Notes under the pieces: model-generated
The model's database searches: none
What the model was told of the DNA's origin: nothing
What the model saw: only the letters and a program-made list of their open reading frames with translations
Shown: in pieces, positions 38,053 through 46,990 of the stretch
Layout of the letters: each line of letters opens with the position of its first letter
How positions within the stretch are numbered: the first letter of the stretch is position 1
Translations under genes and position numbers: made by a program
Source: Dongia deserti
GTDB taxonomy: Bacteria; Pseudomonadota; Alphaproteobacteria; Dongiales; Dongiaceae
Length of the DNA: 64,000 bases
Direction of reading: 5' to 3'
NCBI RefSeq assembly: GCF_003574735.1
Contig: NZ_QORW01000014.1
Span: 62,001 to 126,000, forward strand

Positions 38053-40107
38053 TCAGAACCCGATCTTCACTGTGCGCAGGTTCTTTGCCGCCACTTCCTG
38101 CTCCAACAGGCGCACGATGTCGGGCGCCTCGTCGCCGGGCTGGCCGAGCAGGCGCAGCTTCTTCGCGACCACCGCGAAGTCACCGGGCGTAAGATGCTCG
38201 ATGGAGCGCAGCGCCGCCGGCGGCTCGCATCCGAAGAACTGGCGATAGGCCGCAGCGCTCTGTACCGGGGTCATGAAATCGAACTTCACCTTTAAGGTGA
38301 AGCGCCGCAACGCCGCTGGATCGATGCAGTCGAGATGGTTTGTGGTGCAGGCGAAAGGCAGAGGATGGGTCTCCATCTGCACCAGCAGCTCGTTCACAAT
38401 CGACACTTCCCACGATCGGCTTGCGCCCGAGCGGCTCCACAGGAAGGTCTCCACTTCGTCAATGATGAGAAAGGCGTCGTCCTGCCGCGCCTCTTCGAAG
38501 GCCTCGGCCAGGCGCTGCTCGGTTTCGCCCACCCACATGGAGAGCAGGTCGGACCCGCGCGTCAGTAGCGGCTCGAGCCCCATGGCGGCAGCGAGCGCGC
38601 GTGCAAAGGCGCTCTTGCCGGTGCCGGGCGGGCCCGAGAGGCAGAGCGAGAAATCGCGCGCGCCGCCGGGTGCGGCCAGCGCCCGCTGCAAATGCCGGAG
38701 ATCAGGATCGGTGTTGGCGAGGTCGGCCTGGAAGCGGCCGTGTGTCGCGATGCGGTTCGACCGCCGCCCGCTCAGAGGGTGCGCCAGCGACTTGACGACG
38801 AAGTCGAGCTCGTCGCTGCCGCCGCCGGCCATCGCTACGGCGTGGACAGCCCCGGTCATGAGGCCCGGCGAGACCTTGTGCAGGCGCGCCAGGACATCGG
38901 CGTCTTCTGCCTGCATGCGAAGGCCCTGGCGCCGTGCCGCCGCTTCCCACAGGCGCGCACGGCCCGCGGCGGGCAGAGCCTTCATCTCGAATGCGAAGGT
39001 CATGCGCCGCAGGAAGGCGGGATCGAACTCGTCGATCGCATTGGCGGTCCATAGGACCGGCACCTGGTTCTGCTCCAGCAGCCGGTTGAAGAACACTTTC
39101 GATCCGGCGCGCCGCACCGGCCCGCGCCCGGAGCTGGCGCGCTCGCCGCGTTGCAGAATGTCCTCCATCTCGTCGAACAGCAGCAGCGCCTTGCCGCGGC
39201 GCGCCGCCAGCTTGTCCGCAAGTCGCAGTGCGTCCAGGCGATCGCTGCGCGAGGGCTCTTCGCCGCTTTCATCGGTCTCGCCGACCGCAAACAGGTCGCG
39301 CCCGACTGCGCGCGCCACCATCTTGCAGAACTCCGACTTGCCGGTGCCCGGCCCGCCATAGAGCAGGATGTTGATTCCCATCCGCCCCTCGGCGCCGCGC
39401 AGCAGGCGCAGCACGAAGTCGCGCTCTTGCGCCACGTGGTCATAGGCTGCCAGATCCAGCTGCGGCGGCAGTGGTTCACCGATCAGCGCACGCTCCATGT
39501 CGGCGACCGACTCGTTGGGCGGCATCAGCGCCGCGACGATGCGGTAGGGCACATAGTAAGTGAAGCGGTCGGTGCCGCTGCTGGCGATATCCACCAGATG
39601 CAGGCCCTTGAGCGGCCCACGCAGCAGCTTGTCCCAGATCTCCGTCGGCTTGCGCCCGAGGCAGAGCGCGGTGAGGCTAAGCGTATCGATTGCGCGGGTC
39701 TCCACGATGCCGTTACACAGCCGCTCGAAAGTCGCGTCGCGATCGGTGTGGAACACGAACCGGAAGATCTCCGCTTCCAGCGGATCGAGACCCACCGCCC
39801 GCACGAACGCGTCCAGATTCGCCGAGACCGCATCCGCGGCGGTTGCGCCGGCCGATGCGCTCCTGGCGATCGCGGCCCGGAGGCGCGCCCAAAGGCGCTG
39901 CGGCAAGGGCTTGTCCCATGCCGGCGACTTGCGCTTGCGCCCCTTCGGCGTGCGCGCGGTCGTAGCGGCCTCGAAATCGAGGCCCACCATGCACTGGTTG
40001 CTGCGCAGCCAAAAGGTGAGTCGCCGGCCCGGCGGCGAAGCCGGGTCGAAGGCTTGCATCATGGCGTGCACATAGGCGGCGACTGCCGCCTGCGATGCGG
40101 TGATCAT
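38053..40107 (-). CDS. Tandem AAA+ ATPase (two AAA modules)
   Basis: A 684-residue protein. The N-terminal ~240 residues match no domain I recognise. AAA module 1 has Walker A GGPGTGKS (251-258), Walker B ALLLFDE (307-313), sensor TAN (354-356) and RR at 367-368. AAA module 2 has Walker A GPPGTGKS (492-499), Walker B FLIIDE (546-551), sensor TTN (588-590) and RR at 601-602. The second module resembles proteasomal/FtsH-type or Cdc48-type unfoldase modules, yet no protease domain or membrane span is present. GGAAAG lies before ATG 40107. It is divergent from the metallopeptidase/ATP-grasp pair, which hints at a joint role. Function unknown. Confidence 0.85.
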   Translation of the reverse strand: MITASQAAVAAYVHAMMQAFDPASPPGRRLTFWLRSNQCMVGLDFEAATTARTPKGRKRKSPAWDKPLPQRLWARLRAAIARSASAGATAADAVSANLDAFVRAVGLDPLEAEIFRFVFHTDRDATFERLCNGIVETRAIDTLSLTALCLGRKPTEIWDKLLRGPLKGLHLVDIASSGTDRFTYYVPYRIVAALMPPNESVADMERALIGEPLPPQLDLAAYDHVAQERDFVLRLLRGAEGRMGINILLYGGPGTGKSEFCKMVARAVGRDLFAVGETDESGEEPSRSDRLDALRLADKLAARRGKALLLFDEMEDILQRGERASSGRGPVRRAGSKVFFNRLLEQNQVPVLWTANAIDEFDPAFLRRMTFAFEMKALPAAGRARLWEAAARRQGLRMQAEDADVLARLHKVSPGLMTGAVHAVAMAGGGSDELDFVVKSLAHPLSGRRSNRIATHGRFQADLANTDPDLRHLQRALAAPGGARDFSLCLSGPPGTGKSAFARALAAAMGLEPLLTRGSDLLSMWVGETEQRLAEAFEEARQDDAFLIIDEVETFLWSRSGASRSWEVSIVNELLVQMETHPLPFACTTNHLDCIDPAALRRFTLKVKFDFMTPVQSAAAYRQFFGCEPPAALRSIEHLTPGDFAVVAKKLRLLGQPGDEAPDIVRLLEQEVAAKNLRTVKIGF

Positions 40108-40450
40108 GATTGTCGCTTTCCAAATCCAGAACGCACGGAACTCTCGGCGGCAGCGCGAAAGCGCGCCGTCTCAGGCTCAACTCTGCTCGTGTCTAACGCC
40201 GGCCTGGTCCCAGATGCCGGCCAGCGCCGCTATCGCGGCTGGAAAGCAATCCAGGACAAAGCTGGCTGCATGTGAGAACGCATGGGTTTCTCCGTTGCCA
40301 ACTTTGTTCGCCGCCTAGCTGCTGGCGAAGGGCGGTGTAGCTACCAGAAGTGCAACCGGAAATCAATCCCCCGAGTCGCGCCCGCCGCTTGCCTCTGCAG
40401 GTACCCCGTGACACCATCCCGCCGGTGGTTCCAACCCGATTCGGAGCGCC
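40108..40450. promoter_or_regulatory. 343-base divergent gap with strong hairpins
   Basis: This region has no convincing gene. It must hold promoters for the AAA gene (minus) and the metallopeptidase gene (plus). A strong hairpin spans 40146-40170: GGCGGC-a-GCGC, GAAA tetraloop, then GCGC-GCCGTC, with one bulged A and one G-T pair. A second, CCAGC..CGC with GCGGCTGG, spans 40221-40242. Around 40267-40283 is the imperfect palindrome GCATGTGAGAACGCATG. Roles are not assignable by eye. Confidence 0.5.
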
Positions 40451-41476
40451 ATGGCGTCGCGGTTTCCCTGGGCCTCGTTGCCGGACGAGGAACTCCTCGA
40501 ATTGCGCCTCAAGGACCTCAAGGTCACCGTCGAAGGGACGTGGCTGGAGCTGTGCCTGCGCGCGCTCCACGGCGAGCTGGAGGCGAAAGGTCTGCGCATC
40601 CGCCCACACGCCTGGATCTCCAACGAGTGGTTCAGCCCGGATACCACCCCCGGCATCGCGATCCCGTTCTATCTCGCCCATCCGCGCCTGATGCGGCTGG
40701 AGCGCAAGATGATCATCGACGTCGAGGGTGGCACGGTGCCGGACTGCATGCGCATCCTGCGCCACGAGGCCGGCCACGTGATCCAGCATTCCTATCAGCT
40801 CAACCGCCGCCGCCGCTGGCAGCAATTGTTCGGCCGTTCCTCCACACGCTATCCCGATTTCTACCGGCCCAACCCCGCCAGCAAGAACTACGTCCAGCAT
40901 CTGCGCCTGTGGTACGCGCAGAGCCATCCGGACGAGGATTTCGCCGAAACCTTCGCCGTCTGGCTGCGGCCGCGCTCCGACTGGCGCAAGCGCTATGAGG
41001 GCTGGCCGGCCTTCAAGAAGCTCGAATATGTCGACGAGCTGATGCAGGAGATCGCGACAGAGCGGCCGGTGCTCACCCATCGCCATCGCATCGATCCCTT
41101 GAGCAAGCTGACGCAGACGTTGGCCGAGCACTACGCGCAGAAGCAGGCGCTCTACGCGATGCCCACCACCACGATCTATGACCGCGATCTGCGCCGCATC
41201 TTTTCCGACGAGCCGCGCCATCGCCACTGGCCGGCGGCCTCCACCTTCATCAGGCATCATCGCGCGCGCATCCGGCGCATGGTCGCGAAATGGACCGGCG
41301 AATATCAGCTCACCCTGGATTCGGTGCTGGACGAGATGATCGCGCGCTGCCGCGAGCTCAAGCTGCGGGCCGTCGGCAATCAGCGGGAACTCATCATCAA
41401 CTTCACCGTGCTATTGACGGCAAAGACGGTGCATTCGCTCTACAGTCCGTCGCGGCGGGAATGGTTCGCGCTATGA
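40451..41476 (+). CDS. Putative zinc metallopeptidase (HEAGH zincin)
   Basis: A 341-residue cytoplasmic-looking protein without signal peptide. RHEAGHVIQH supplies the HExxH zinc site (His105, Glu106, His109). DEDFAETFAVWL about 55 residues later gives a third ligand candidate (Glu166 in AET), a gluzincin-like layout. The family is annotated as putative zinc-binding metallopeptidase in proteobacteria, with no known substrate to my knowledge. The C-terminal half is basic and helical (HHRARIRRMVAKWTG). CGGAG lies five bases before the start. Its stop overlaps the ATP-grasp start as ATGA (41473-41476), a clear sign of joint function. Confidence 0.8.
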   Translation: MASRFPWASLPDEELLELRLKDLKVTVEGTWLELCLRALHGELEAKGLRIRPHAWISNEWFSPDTTPGIAIPFYLAHPRLMRLERKMIIDVEGGTVPDCMRILRHEAGHVIQHSYQLNRRRRWQQLFGRSSTRYPDFYRPNPASKNYVQHLRLWYAQSHPDEDFAETFAVWLRPRSDWRKRYEGWPAFKKLEYVDELMQEIATERPVLTHRHRIDPLSKLTQTLAEHYAQKQALYAMPTTTIYDRDLRRIFSDEPRHRHWPAASTFIRHHRARIRRMVAKWTGEYQLTLDSVLDEMIARCRELKLRAVGNQRELIINFTVLLTAKTVHSLYSPSRREWFAL

Positions 41477-42498
41477 AGAAACTGCGCATCCTGGTTCTGC
41501 TCCACCCCGATCTGATGCCGCCCGATTCCTTGAAGGGCCACAGCGAGAAAGACATCAATGTCTGGAAGACCGAGTACGACGTGGTGAGCACGCTCCGCTC
41601 GGCCGGACATGAAGTCATGCCGCTCGGCGTCCAGTACGAGCTGAAGCCGATCCGCGATGCGATCGAGGAGTTCAAGGCCGACGTCGCCTTCAACCTGCTG
41701 GAGCAGTTCCATGGCGAGACGGCCTACGACACGAACGTTGCCTCCTATCTGGAGCTGCTGAAGATTCCCTACACTGGCTGCAATCCCCGCGGCCTCATGC
41801 TGGCGCGCGGCAAGGCGCTTTCGAAGAAGCTCGTCGCCTATCACCGCATCCCGGTGCCGGCCTTCGCGGTCTTTCCCAAGCGGCGCAAGGTGAAGCGGCC
41901 CGCCCGCCTCGGCTTCCCGCTGATCGTCAAGAGCGTGAGCGAGGACGCCTCGGTCGGCATCGCCCAGGCGTCGGTGGTGGAGAACGACGAGAAGCTGGAG
42001 GAGCGTGTCCACTTCATCCACGAGAAGGTCGGCACAGACGCGCTGGTCGAGCAATATATCGAGGGACGCGAGCTCTACGTCGGCGTGCTCGGCAACGAGC
42101 GCCTGCGCGTGTTCCCGGTGTGGGAGCTGGAATTCGGCGACATGGCCGAAGGCGGCCACTCCATCGCCACCGCCAAGGTGAAGCACGATCTCGAATATCA
42201 GGAGAAGCTCGGCATCAAGAGCGGCCCGGCCAAAGACCTGTCGCCGGAACTGCGCACCCGCATCAGCAACGTCGCCAAGCGCATCTGCCGCACGCTCGAG
42301 CTCGACGGCTACTCCCGCGTCGATTTCCGACTCTCGGCCGATGGCATCCCGTATTTCCTGGAAGCCAACCCCAATCCCGAGATCGCCAAGGTCGAGGATT
42401 TCGCCGAAGCCGCCGCCAAGGACGGCATCAAGTACCGCGACCTCCTGAACCGCATCGTTACCCTCGCCATCCAACGCGCCACCGTGGCGGGTAGTTGA
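41473..42498 (+). CDS. ATP-grasp ligase (D-Ala-D-Ala ligase-like)
   Basis: A 341-residue ATP-grasp enzyme. NLLEQFHGETAYDTNVASYLE, given here as NLLEQFHGETAYD, resembles the D-Ala-D-Ala ligase substrate loop. The central ATP-grasp has FPLIVKSVSEDASVGI and LVEQYIEGRELYVGVLG, and the Mg/ATP site is SRVDFRLSADG...FLEANPNPE. Such enzymes form amide bonds from an acyl phosphate. It differs from Ddl in length and in the KMRH-like end, and no cell-wall genes adjoin it, so it is not Ddl by context. Coupling to a zinc peptidase suggests a make-and-break peptide modification pair. Substrate unknown. Confidence 0.85.
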   Translation: MKKLRILVLLHPDLMPPDSLKGHSEKDINVWKTEYDVVSTLRSAGHEVMPLGVQYELKPIRDAIEEFKADVAFNLLEQFHGETAYDTNVASYLELLKIPYTGCNPRGLMLARGKALSKKLVAYHRIPVPAFAVFPKRRKVKRPARLGFPLIVKSVSEDASVGIAQASVVENDEKLEERVHFIHEKVGTDALVEQYIEGRELYVGVLGNERLRVFPVWELEFGDMAEGGHSIATAKVKHDLEYQEKLGIKSGPAKDLSPELRTRISNVAKRICRTLELDGYSRVDFRLSADGIPYFLEANPNPEIAKVEDFAEAAAKDGIKYRDLLNRIVTLAIQRATVAGS

Positions 42499-42522
42499 CG
42501 CGCGTTTTCGCCGCTTCTCACA

Positions 42523-42659
42523 TGTCGTCCCGGGCGCGCGTGCTGCTTCTCGCGTGTCATCCCGGGCGCGCGCAGCGCGACCCGGGACCCATGCGTCCTA
42601 TGAGCGCCGCGGCGAGACCGCATAGGCCCGGCTCGCACTGCGCTCGGCCGGGGTGACAG
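42523..42659. repeat. Palindromic intergenic repeat, family A, copy 3 with partial duplicate
   Basis: A full element runs from TGTCATCCCGGG (42555) to GGCCGGGGTGACA (ending 42658). It encloses CGCGCGCAGCGCGACCCGGGACCC and GGCCCGGCTCGCACTGCGCTCGG. A partial left half, TGTCGTCCCGGGCGCGCG, precedes it at 42523-42540. It fills the gap between the convergent ATP-grasp and VOC-cupin genes. Confidence 0.8.
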
Positions 42660-42672
42660 TAAGTGTTGCTGG

Positions 42673-43791
42673 CTATGTGTGCGGCAATTCCGCGGGCAGC
42701 GTCACTTCCAGTATCTCTGATCCCGCGCCAGCGCTCAGCGCATAGACGGCGCCTGCCGGAATGACGCAGCTGTCGTTGCCCCTCAGAGAATGATCGCCGT
42801 GCCGCTCAACGTGGAGACCGACTTCGCCCGTCAGCACGAACAAGAACAGGAACTCGCCCCCATGCGCACCGAACTTCGCGATAGCGGCGCCACCGCGTGG
42901 GCGAACGACGCGCGCGCCTGCCAATCCATCGGTTGCCGCCGCGATACCGGTATCGCGCATCTCGAATCCATCCGCGCGCCAGGGCAGCCACTTTGCGTCC
43001 GCCGCGATATGACGCACGAAGCGCTGGCCACCGAAATGGCGCTCCGGCAGCACATGCGGCGTCGGCAAGGTCATGGCGTGGTCGGCGAAGGTCTCGTGCA
43101 CCGCGGGGCAGCCGAGCTCAATCACCTCCAGTCCGGCCGAGGCTTCCAGCACCCGGTGGCGGATCTCCGGCGGCTGCAGCACGCAATCGCCGGCCTTGAA
43201 CAGGAACGGCGCGCCCTGGTCCTCGTAGACCAGCCGCGCCCAGCCCGCCTTGCAATAGATCATCTGGAAGCGGATGTGATGGAAGTGCACGTAGTCCGGC
43301 ACCGGCCCGCCGTCGGGAATGCGGATATGCGAGGCGATGAAGCGCCCGCCAAGCCGGCTGGGAATGAGGTCGCGATATTGCATGCCGGCGCGCCCGACGC
43401 CCCAATGCTCCTCCATGCGGCCCAGCACGAACTCATGCGTGCCGGCTGGAATTTCAAGCGGCCGCTTTGCTTCTATCAGTTCGATGCGCGTTCCGCTCGG
43501 CGCGGTCATCCCCTGCGCCGTGCCCGCCGGCAGCGACGCCAAGTCGCAAAGTAGGCGGAGTGTGATCGGCGGCGCATCCGCATCCGCCGCCTCGAGCCGC
43601 AGAGTGAGTCCATATCCCGACATCACGACGACCTGCGGCGAATCCGCCGGGAAGATCAGGGTGACCTTGAAACCCAATTCATCCGTGAAGAACGCCAGGT
43701 TCGCCGCTAGGTCGCGGCAGGGCAGCACTACCTGTGCGAGCTGGATATGCTCCGTCAGCGCTGCCGCGCGATTGTGCCCGATGTCGTCCAT
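42673..43791 (-). CDS. VOC-bicupin fusion protein
   Basis: A 372-residue protein. The N-terminal ~115 residues form a VOC module: HIQLAQVVLPCRDLAANLAFF, quoted as QLAQVVLPCRDLAANLAFF, then TDELGFKVTLIFP. Two cupin modules follow. The first has PDYVHFHHIRFQMIYCKAGW and FLFKAGDCVLQPPEIRHRV, the standard cupin motifs 1 and 2 with His metal ligands. The second has AHGGEFLFLFVLTGEVGLHV and DSCVIPAGAVYALSAG. I chose ATG 43791 because the ~35 residues upstream are low-complexity and unlike a fold. VOC-cupin fusions are uncommon, and a ring-cleavage or isomerase reaction is conceivable. The gene stands alone. Confidence 0.82.
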   Translation of the reverse strand: MDDIGHNRAAALTEHIQLAQVVLPCRDLAANLAFFTDELGFKVTLIFPADSPQVVVMSGYGLTLRLEAADADAPPITLRLLCDLASLPAGTAQGMTAPSGTRIELIEAKRPLEIPAGTHEFVLGRMEEHWGVGRAGMQYRDLIPSRLGGRFIASHIRIPDGGPVPDYVHFHHIRFQMIYCKAGWARLVYEDQGAPFLFKAGDCVLQPPEIRHRVLEASAGLEVIELGCPAVHETFADHAMTLPTPHVLPERHFGGQRFVRHIAADAKWLPWRADGFEMRDTGIAAATDGLAGARVVRPRGGAAIAKFGAHGGEFLFLFVLTGEVGLHVERHGDHSLRGNDSCVIPAGAVYALSAGAGSEILEVTLPAELPHT

Positions 43792-45418: not shown

Positions 45419-46990
45419 TCAGCCGATCGCGTCCGGCACCATCTTGCCTTTGGTGATCTCTTCCTTGCGTTTCGCCACATAGGCATCAAGTGCTTCCTTG
45501 CGGCCTTCTTCCATCGGCGGCGGCTCGTAGCTTTTGAGCAGTTCCTTCCAGATCGCGTTGGCGCGCTCCGTGCCATTGCGTGCGCCGGCATTCTCCCAGC
45601 TCTGATAGTTGCGCCAGTCGGACAGCATCGGCTCGTAGAAGGCGGTGGAGAACCGCTCCAGCGTGTGGCCGACGCCGAAGAAATGGCCGCCTGGTCCGAC
45701 TTCGGCGATCGCGTCGACCCCCATCTCCGCTTCATCGACCGCGATCGGCTTCAGAAACTCGCGCATGTTCTGCAAGAGCTCCGCATCGAGGATCAGCTTT
45801 TCGAACGAGGCGGTGAGGCCGCCTTCCATCCAGCCCGCCGCATGCTCGATGAGATTGACTCCGCCCATGATCGCACCCCACAGCGACATCATCGATTCGT
45901 AGGAGGCCTGGATGTCGACGCAGTTCGATGCCGTCACGTTGCTGGAGCGGTACGGTACGCCGACCCTGCGCGCCAGCTGCCCGCCTGCCAGCGCAGCCTT
46001 CGTGTATTCCGGCGTGCCGAAGGCCGGTGAACCCGATCGCATATCGACATTGGAGGTGAACCCGCCATAGAGCACCGGCGCGTCCGGCGATGCGATCTGC
46101 GACAAGGCCAGCATCGCCAGCGCCTCGGCATGCTGCTGCACGAGCGCGCCGGCCAGCGTCACGGGACTCATCGCGCCCGACAGCGTGAAGGGCGTCATCG
46201 CCACCGGCTGGCCGCTGCGCCCCATCGCCAGCAGCGCCTCGCACATCGGGATATCGAGCCGGAGCGGCGAATTGGAATTGATGATGGTGAGGGTGACGGG
46301 GACAGCTTTCATCTCCGCGCGGCTCAGGCCATAGGCGATACCGGCCATGTTGATCGCATCCTCGACGCGATACTCGCCCAGCGCCCAGCATTGCCAGGTC
46401 TTGTCGGTCAGCGTCAGCGCCGCCTGATAGAAATCGAGATGACGCGTATCCGCCGGCAGGTCCGTCGGCTCGATCGGGCAGCCGCCTTCCTGGTGGATCA
46501 CGTTCAGCTGATGCACCAGCTTCAGGTAATCGCACATGTCGGCGTAATTGCCCGGCCGCTTGCCGCGGTCGCAATCATGGGCGAAGGCCGGCCCGCCCGT
46601 GGCGGCGAAGATGATCTCGCCCGCGCCGCAGCCGATGTCGTAGGCGCGGTTGCGCGCCTGCATCCGGAAGCTGGCCGGTGCCTGGGCGATGCTCTGCTCC
46701 ACCAACATGGGGTCGAAGCGCACGCGCTGCGTCGCTTCGTCCACCTCGGCGCCGGCCACTTTCAGGATTGCGCGCGCGTCGTCCTGCATGACCTCGATGC
46801 CGGTCTCGCGCAGCAATTTCAGGGCAGTGTGATGGATGGTCTCGACCTGATCCGCGCTCAGCACCTCGATCGGCCGATAACGGTTGACCGCCCGCGCAAA
46901 GGGTAGCTGGCGCACTGCGGCCTGGGGCGCGCGGCGCTCCCGGCGACGGGTCGCGGCGGTGGCGGTGCTGGTGGGGGCGACTTCGGTCAT
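45419..46990 (-). CDS. Trimethylamine methyltransferase (MttB) family protein, non-pyrrolysine type
   Basis: A 523-residue protein of the MttB superfamily, TIM-barrel enzymes that move a methyl group from a quaternary or tertiary amine to a corrinoid protein. Segments typical of the family include EVMQDDARAILKVAGAEVD, IFAATGGPAFAHDCDRGKRP, VLYGGFTSNVDMRSGSPAFG and GGHFFGVGHTLERF. There is no in-frame amber codon, so it belongs with the glycine-betaine-type non-Pyl members. No corrinoid partner or ramA-like activator is in the window, so the acceptor is unclear. AAGGAGG lies seven bases before ATG 46990. A perfect palindrome lies just upstream. Confidence 0.88.
   Translation of the reverse strand: MTEVAPTSTATAATRRRERRAPQAAVRQLPFARAVNRYRPIEVLSADQVETIHHTALKLLRETGIEVMQDDARAILKVAGAEVDEATQRVRFDPMLVEQSIAQAPASFRMQARNRAYDIGCGAGEIIFAATGGPAFAHDCDRGKRPGNYADMCDYLKLVHQLNVIHQEGGCPIEPTDLPADTRHLDFYQAALTLTDKTWQCWALGEYRVEDAINMAGIAYGLSRAEMKAVPVTLTIINSNSPLRLDIPMCEALLAMGRSGQPVAMTPFTLSGAMSPVTLAGALVQQHAEALAMLALSQIASPDAPVLYGGFTSNVDMRSGSPAFGTPEYTKAALAGGQLARRVGVPYRSSNVTASNCVDIQASYESMMSLWGAIMGGVNLIEHAAGWMEGGLTASFEKLILDAELLQNMREFLKPIAVDEAEMGVDAIAEVGPGGHFFGVGHTLERFSTAFYEPMLSDWRNYQSWENAGARNGTERANAIWKELLKSYEPPPMEEGRKEALDAYVAKRKEEITKGKMVPDAIG

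Follow-up and report, generated by a model that had tools for sequence, protein, structure and literature searches.

The 64,000-nucleotide stretch of Dongia deserti DNA considered here (from contig NZ_QORW01000014.1, hereafter the window) carries two overlapping genes on its forward strand whose products appear to be a metallopeptidase and an amide-forming ligase. The first gene (40451-41476, +) encodes a 341-residue HExxH zincin that matches Pfam as a distant relative of Peptidase_Mx (PF15887). The second (41473-42498, +), which begins with ATGAAG, encodes a 341-residue ATP-grasp enzyme that resembles Ddl by Pfam match and predicted fold. The stop codon of the first gene and the start codon of the second share the bases ATGA at 41473-41476 (+). 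Divergent from them lies the gene for a 684-residue, two-module AAA ATPase (38053-40107, -), recognized from its open reading frame (ORF) and two Pfam AAA stretches. A preliminary description of this locus grouped all three genes as one system. The comparisons reported below retain the peptidase and the ligase as a two-gene, all-or-none module and place the ATPase outside it.

A scan of named genomes yielded 297 confirmed relatives of the zincin, the best 80 of which were kept as named loci. Together with the window these make up the 81 loci to which many of the following counts refer. Nearly all are labeled Alphaproteobacteria (Bradyrhizobium, Xanthobacteraceae, Dongia and Rhodospirillaceae), the exceptions being L080, labeled Gammaproteobacteria, and L100, labeled Gemmatimonadota. 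Within this collection, H105, E106 and H109 of the HEAGH motif (residues 105-109; 40763-40777, +) are identical in 81 of 81 proteins, as are residues 162-168 (E162 to F168) of the downstream stretch DEDFAETF (residues 161-168; 40931-40954, +). E166, which is invariant as well, is the probable third zinc ligand.

The Pfam score of the zincin for Peptidase_Mx is 32.9 bits against a cut-off of 27, and the match spans model positions 90-164 of 236, which is the active site only. An HExxH motif with a downstream ED(F/W)AE is nevertheless found in every one of the 81 proteins, and all six of the canonical Peptidase_Mx sequences inspected share the pattern HExGH...HPxED(F/W)AE. Canonical members, however, score 265-376 bits in a 200-genome sample of the phylum, compared with 33 for the window protein. 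The sole canonical protein scanned for domains (L159) has a zinc ribbon, whereas the ribbon model PF10005 finds no match in the window peptidase. Judged by these features, the zincin is a separate, distant and ribbon-less branch of Peptidase_Mx relatives. Sequence comparison with solved structures returned two weak matches (E values of 0.0095 and 1.2), and their best stretches lie off the active site.

The ligase presents a different mixture of family traits. Although a mechanical ORF list places its start at 41290, its homologs align from 41473. The Pfam model Dala_Dala_lig_C matches it at 104.8 bits (cut-off 24), far more strongly than the RimK model, which gives a partial match of 23.8 bits (cut-off 21) over positions 1-85 of 188. 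There is no match to the circularly permuted ATP-grasp (CP_ATPgrasp) families. The predicted structure has a mean predicted local distance difference test (pLDDT) value of 87.3, and its best match among solved structures is DdlA of P. aeruginosa (8evx; template modeling score 0.77, E value 5.1e-26). Thus, the model assigns a Ddl fold to the ligase with good confidence. The ATP- and magnesium-binding residues K153, R282, D284, E297 and N299 are invariant wherever they can be read in the 81 loci.

The fold is not accompanied by the other marks of a Ddl. The N-terminal model Dala_Dala_lig_N (PF01820) scores 19.3 bits, below its cut-off of 34.6, whereas the genome's own Ddl reaches 75.9. Among NCBIfam models for Ddl the best score is 144.2 bits against a cut-off of 243, and the ligase falls under the cut-off in all 25 listed of the 58 models matched. 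The stretch EANPNPEIA (residues 297-305; 42361-42387, +) retains E297 and N299, but NPNPEIA stands in place of N-x-x-P-G-M-T, part of the longer N-x-x-P-G-M-T-x-x-S that we take, along with the roles of its residues, to be the acceptor-site motif of Ddl. The glycine position of this motif is occupied by glutamate in 75 and by aspartate in two of the 77 readable sequences, and the serine position by glutamate or glutamine in all 77. In a tree, 16 ligases from such pairs are grouped in a clade of their own (support 100/98), and nine Ddls of the same family fall outside it. By family score, N-terminal domain, acceptor motif and clade, the ligase is judged not to be a Ddl. A paralog of the cell-wall Ddl is disfavored on the same grounds and by the setting of the true Ddl of this genome, which has the motif NTQPGMT and is sited with murB, ftsA and ftsZ. 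Neither protein of the pair has a strongly hydrophobic stretch (highest 19-residue hydropathy means of 1.14 for the peptidase and 1.05 for the ligase), and from this simple measure both are presumed to be cytosolic.

The ligase gene lies directly downstream of the zincin gene at all 80 named loci, with a gap of 0 to 140 bases. The sequence ATGA (66 loci) or GTGA (6 loci) at the zincin stop provides a start codon in the ligase frame in 72 of the 81 cases. For 66 of the 80 named loci, the overlapping base is exactly where the alignment of the ligase begins. At L101 the alignment starts at the overlap even though the codon there is no start codon. The two genes are probably translationally coupled. 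A scan of positions 39900-42700 for promoters and terminators found none, no RNA families were found in the window, and neither PADLOC nor PHROGs gave a match for the peptidase or the ligase.

Presence and absence of the two genes were compared in three further genome sets, the first of which shares several assemblies with the named loci. Among 17 genomes of the order, where a ligase ortholog was defined by at least 72% identity, nine have both genes and eight have neither. The genes are adjacent in this set, and the ligase ortholog of one genome (G006) is cut by a contig end. Of 289 genomes of the class, four have both and 285 have neither at the thresholds used for the pair (E <= 1e-20 and <= 1e-60). 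In a second genus, which is probably Bradyrhizobium judging from the named loci, 61 of 117 genomes have both and 56 have neither, and coordinates place the genes side by side in 61 of 61. At the thresholds used, no genome in the order, class or second-genus sets was found to carry only one of the two genes. Furthermore, pairwise distances among the zincins correlate with those among the ligases (r = 0.879) across 76 of the 81 loci (L072, L074, L113, L117 and L126 left out), and none of 1000 shuffles gave a value as high. The peptidase and the ligase are a two-gene, all-or-none module. A zincin-only search of 398 genomes of the phylum found the zincin proper in nine, and six further weak matches proved to be canonical Peptidase_Mx proteins. 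Several features that the preliminary description had read from the window, namely the zinc motif with a candidate glutamate downstream, the magnesium and ATP motifs of the ligase, the real ATGA overlap and the treatment of peptidase and ligase as one unit, are all borne out by these relatives.

Recurrent neighbors of the pair were sought across the 80 named loci by using ORFs of at least 100 amino acids from eight reference loci as queries. The flank upstream of the zincin is at least 2.5 kilobases (kb) long in 67 loci and both flanks reach this length in 51. Because many flanks are short, the neighbor counts are lower bounds. Only frames overlapping the pair and one distant ORF from L098, which recurs in 14, reach 12 or more of the 80 loci. 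The preliminary description had also raised a peptidoglycan neighborhood for the ligase, and no such neighbor recurs beside the pair at this level. The same holds for transporter, regulator and precursor genes, with the limit that a short precursor would escape queries of this length.

The pair shows little sign of travel on mobile elements. No match to the peptidase was found in 72,556 plasmid or 50,697 phage records, and mobile spread is disfavored by this result. Six contigs in the viral collection IMG/VR carry zincin relatives, and in one of them (L217) the zincin, 36% identical to that of the window, is followed after about 60 bases by a ligase that shares 43% identity over residues 69-336. 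A gene of glycosyl hydrolase family 31 adjoins the L217 pair, which suggests that this contig is cellular, and the L217 zincin itself has no match in the plasmid or phage records. Within the contig DNA examined, none of the remaining five zincins is accompanied by a ligase of this kind. Two of these contigs encode proteins (L218:2533-3705 and L220:2089-3420) in which an N-terminal match to PHROG 1238, HAD-like by eye, is joined to a Peptidase_Mx-type zincin, although the Peptidase_Mx score of the L220 protein is under the Pfam cut-off. On a third, a viral contig of 181 kb, a stand-alone Peptidase_Mx-type zincin (L219:2944-3585) lies beside a gene for a 5'-3' exonuclease, and this zincin has no match in the phage records.

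The C-terminus of the peptidase is unusually constant. In the window it reads RREWFAL (residues 335-341; 41453-41473, +), a stretch that the structure model predicts with low confidence, which may reflect flexibility or merely a shallow alignment. All 81 peptidases end in alanine followed by leucine, methionine or valine, W338 (four from the end) is kept in 79, and the distance from DFAETFA to the end is 178-180 residues in every case. The overlapping ligase start does not account for this tail, since the nine loci that have no start codon over the zincin stop keep it too, and a by-product of the overlap is thereby excluded. Ligases from the same loci serve as a fair control, and these have 55 distinct last-four sequences among the 76 of 81 that were usable (L072, L074, L113, L119 and L126 left out). 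Canonical Peptidase_Mx proteins, a more diverse set and thus a looser control, were drawn from 29 canonical loci (30 minus L193, which is the window's own locus). Their ends vary, at 93 to 134 residues, among the 24 of 29 in which the active-site pattern was recognized, the other five being missed. The L217 peptidase ends in RGKFILP, also 178 residues on, with the length kept and the tryptophan and A-L end lost.

The AAA gene is a bystander and no part of the peptidase-ligase unit. The protein does have two P-loops (GGPGTGKS and GPPGTGKS) and two acidic Walker B stretches (LLLFDEMEDI and FLIIDEVETF), as expected from the complete Walker motifs reported for both modules in the preliminary description. 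The further proposals made there, that the ATPase is a coupled unfoldase and that the three families might occur together, did not survive comparison. A full ortholog is present in two of the 17 genomes of the order and adjoins the pair in the window genome only; in the other (G008), it is 54% identical and lies on a different contig from that genome's pair. A tblastn search (E <= 1e-8) found the gene at none of the 80 named loci, including the 67 where the flank upstream of the zincin reaches 2.5 kb or more. In the class set, the AAA family occurs in nine genomes and the pair in four, and the window's own genome is the only one with both. Membership of the ATPase in the system is rejected on these counts. 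The preliminary description had itself named adjacency in this genome alone as a refutation, and in the genomes searched the AAA gene indeed adjoins the pair nowhere else.

The AAA protein falls below the model of the IetA-type anti-phage ATPase (78.5 bits, cut-off 510), and its best PADLOC score is 95.5 bits, for a model with no stated cut-off. A related regulator with a WYL and/or WCX domain lies within about 8 kb of the AAA family gene in L209, L210, L212, L213 and L214, or five of nine foreign stretches (L208-L216), with none in the other four; genomes of 0.9, 1.7 and 2.1 megabases are included. No such regulator was seen beside the window's own AAA gene. The setting of this family alongside WYL and WCX regulators is possibly defense-type or mobile. 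Farther along in the window, a gene of 523 codons at 45419-46990 (-) belongs to the trimethylamine methyltransferase (MTTB) family.

What might a Ddl-like ligase and a zincin accomplish together? To our knowledge, bacteria offer few known examples of a ligase that extends a protein end and a partner peptidase that takes the added residues away; the best studied is RimK/RimB. We give about an even chance to the reading that the two enzymes of the window make and cleave one amide bond in the manner of RimK and RimB, using members of other enzyme families. The ligase would activate a carboxylate with ATP and join it to an amine to create an amide bond, and the zincin would cleave the amide bond in the same product, thereby reversing or trimming the modification. 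The model for such a cycle would be RimK/RimB, in which residues placed on the C-terminus of a protein by an ATP-grasp ligase are taken off by its peptidase partner. We infer a shared substrate, this direction of the peptidase step and a polypeptide end as the substrate. If this reading is true, a pair of unrelated make-up would represent an independent solution to the problem that RimK and RimB solve. The pair also offers a compact two-gene target toward a new protein or peptide modification, and the present result corrects a tempting three-gene interpretation with an unfoldase.

Several points weigh against a make-and-cleave pair. Two such enzymes encoded in one operon could work one after the other instead of against each other. 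The neighbor search turned up no recurrent gene for a substrate, precursor or regulator, so the substrate would have to be a metabolite or the product of a gene elsewhere. The correlation of distances is expected of linked genes, and therefore speaks for joint inheritance and is no proof of contact. The structure model of the peptidase is poor (pLDDT 71.5 and predicted template modeling score 0.48, with low values through residues 126-176), and a fold search with this model, whose quality is too poor, gave no match at E <= 0.001. Finally, two genomes that have no zincin (G015 and G016) carry tandem Ddl-like genes whose products are distantly related to the ligase (about 30% identity). These tandem ATP-grasp genes lie at L061:9700-11609 and in L062, and in each genome one copy groups toward the pair ligase and the other toward Ddl (branch support 99/95).

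Sequential action is the basis of a second explanation, which we consider possible though doubtful. In this case the product would be a small metabolite, either a peptide or an amide, which the ligase would build and the peptidase would then release or mature. Ddl-type ligases yield free dipeptides, which counts in favor of this proposal, and the patchy presence of the pair within one genus (61 of 117 genomes) fits an accessory metabolic trait. In graspetide loci, zincins encoded next to ATP-grasp ligases have been proposed to remove leaders or to mature the product (PMC8939145). The lack of any recurrent transporter, regulator or precursor gene argues against a biosynthetic cluster, within the length limit on queries noted above.

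The fixed tail is the reason for retaining a third explanation, in which the module acts in cis and the tail is the substrate or docking site of the ligase, in a manner similar to LysW and LysX. We regard this as unlikely. LysX joins substrates to the C-terminal glutamate of the carrier LysW, according to PMC10433800. By analogy, it is conceivable, if improbable, that the peptidase serves as its own carrier, such that the ligase would add to its R-R-x-W-hydrophobic-A-L-COOH tail and the peptidase's own HExxH domain would clip the added residue or residues. The outcome, equally a long shot, would be a self-contained two-gene cycle of aminoacylation and de-aminoacylation that needs no separate carrier protein. 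The invariant end and length of the tail, which persist where no start codon overlies the stop while ligase ends vary, are consistent with such a role, as is the retained length in the divergent L217 peptidase. However, a fixed C-terminus could equally serve folding, dimerization or self-inhibition. Moreover, the tail ends in leucine, methionine or valine and thus has no side-chain carboxylate of the kind used by LysW, and the L217 tail has neither the tryptophan nor the A-L end.

A side branch of peptidoglycan metabolism, comprising an accessory D-Ala-D-Ala-type ligase and a zincin that hydrolyzes cell-wall peptides, would accord with the Ddl fold and the Dala_Dala_lig_C match. This option is very unlikely given the Ddl scores below cut-off, the weak Dala_Dala_lig_N match, the NPNPEIA motif, the separate clade and the location of the true Ddl, and the neighbor search found no recurrent peptidoglycan gene beside the pair. 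A system of three parts, in which the AAA ATPase would act as an unfoldase, has in its favor the divergent adjacency in the window genome and against it the counts from the named loci, the order and the class, and is to be considered extremely improbable.

Literature searches found no description of this pair, and a survey of ATP-grasp amidoligases that lay outside their coverage (Iyer et al. 2009) may mention it. Among characterized enzymes, Ddl resembles the ligase in fold and in the ATP and magnesium residues and differs from it in acceptor motif, family score, clade and genome context. Canonical Peptidase_Mx proteins, which combine PF15887 with the ribbon PF10005, share with the window zincin the active-site pattern and a Pfam score above the cut-off, but their scores are far higher and the window protein lacks the ribbon. 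Their neighbors differ also: CP-ATPgrasp or Alpha-E, each sought with one query, lies within 1.5 kb in three of 29 canonical loci, one of which is the L158 genome again, whereas the pair has a Ddl-type ligase at 80 of 80. Therefore, CP-ATPgrasp and Alpha-E are a minority context of the canonical family and not that of the window pair. At L158, one of six loci of 15 kb, a canonical Peptidase_Mx gene lies next to genes for Alpha-E and CP_ATPgrasp, and a nearby frame that resembles Anbu by eye gave no Pfam match at 1e-4. The setting of these minority loci is reminiscent of the Anbu operon.

The Anbu operon, composed of ATP-grasp, Alpha-E, transglutaminase and Anbu genes, likewise places an ATP-grasp enzyme next to a peptidase-like protein, and protein tagging is proposed for it in PMC6376114. 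No Alpha-E, transglutaminase or Anbu gene recurs beside pairs of the window type. An Anbu-type operon was rejected for the window pair, whose ligase has no CP_ATPgrasp match and which has no recurrent third neighbor. The Rlo operon of P. aeruginosa (RloA/B/C) similarly contains a peptidase and an ATP-grasp protein, but as outlined in PMC12239564 its peptidases are secreted aspartic enzymes and it includes a membrane transglutaminase-like partner, whereas the peptidase of the pair is a zincin and no third partner recurs.

The closest parallel, and a tested precedent for the make-and-cleave idea, is the rim operon of Pseudomonas, which also unites an ATP-grasp ligase and a peptidase. RimK polyglutamylates RpsF, while RimB takes the glutamates off again and also stimulates RimK (PMC11957791 and PMC12239564). 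RimB is a retropepsin-like aspartic peptidase, whereas the partner in the window is an HExxH zincin, and the window ligase is of the Ddl type. Since both enzymes come from other families, the pair would work like RimK and RimB without belonging to that system.

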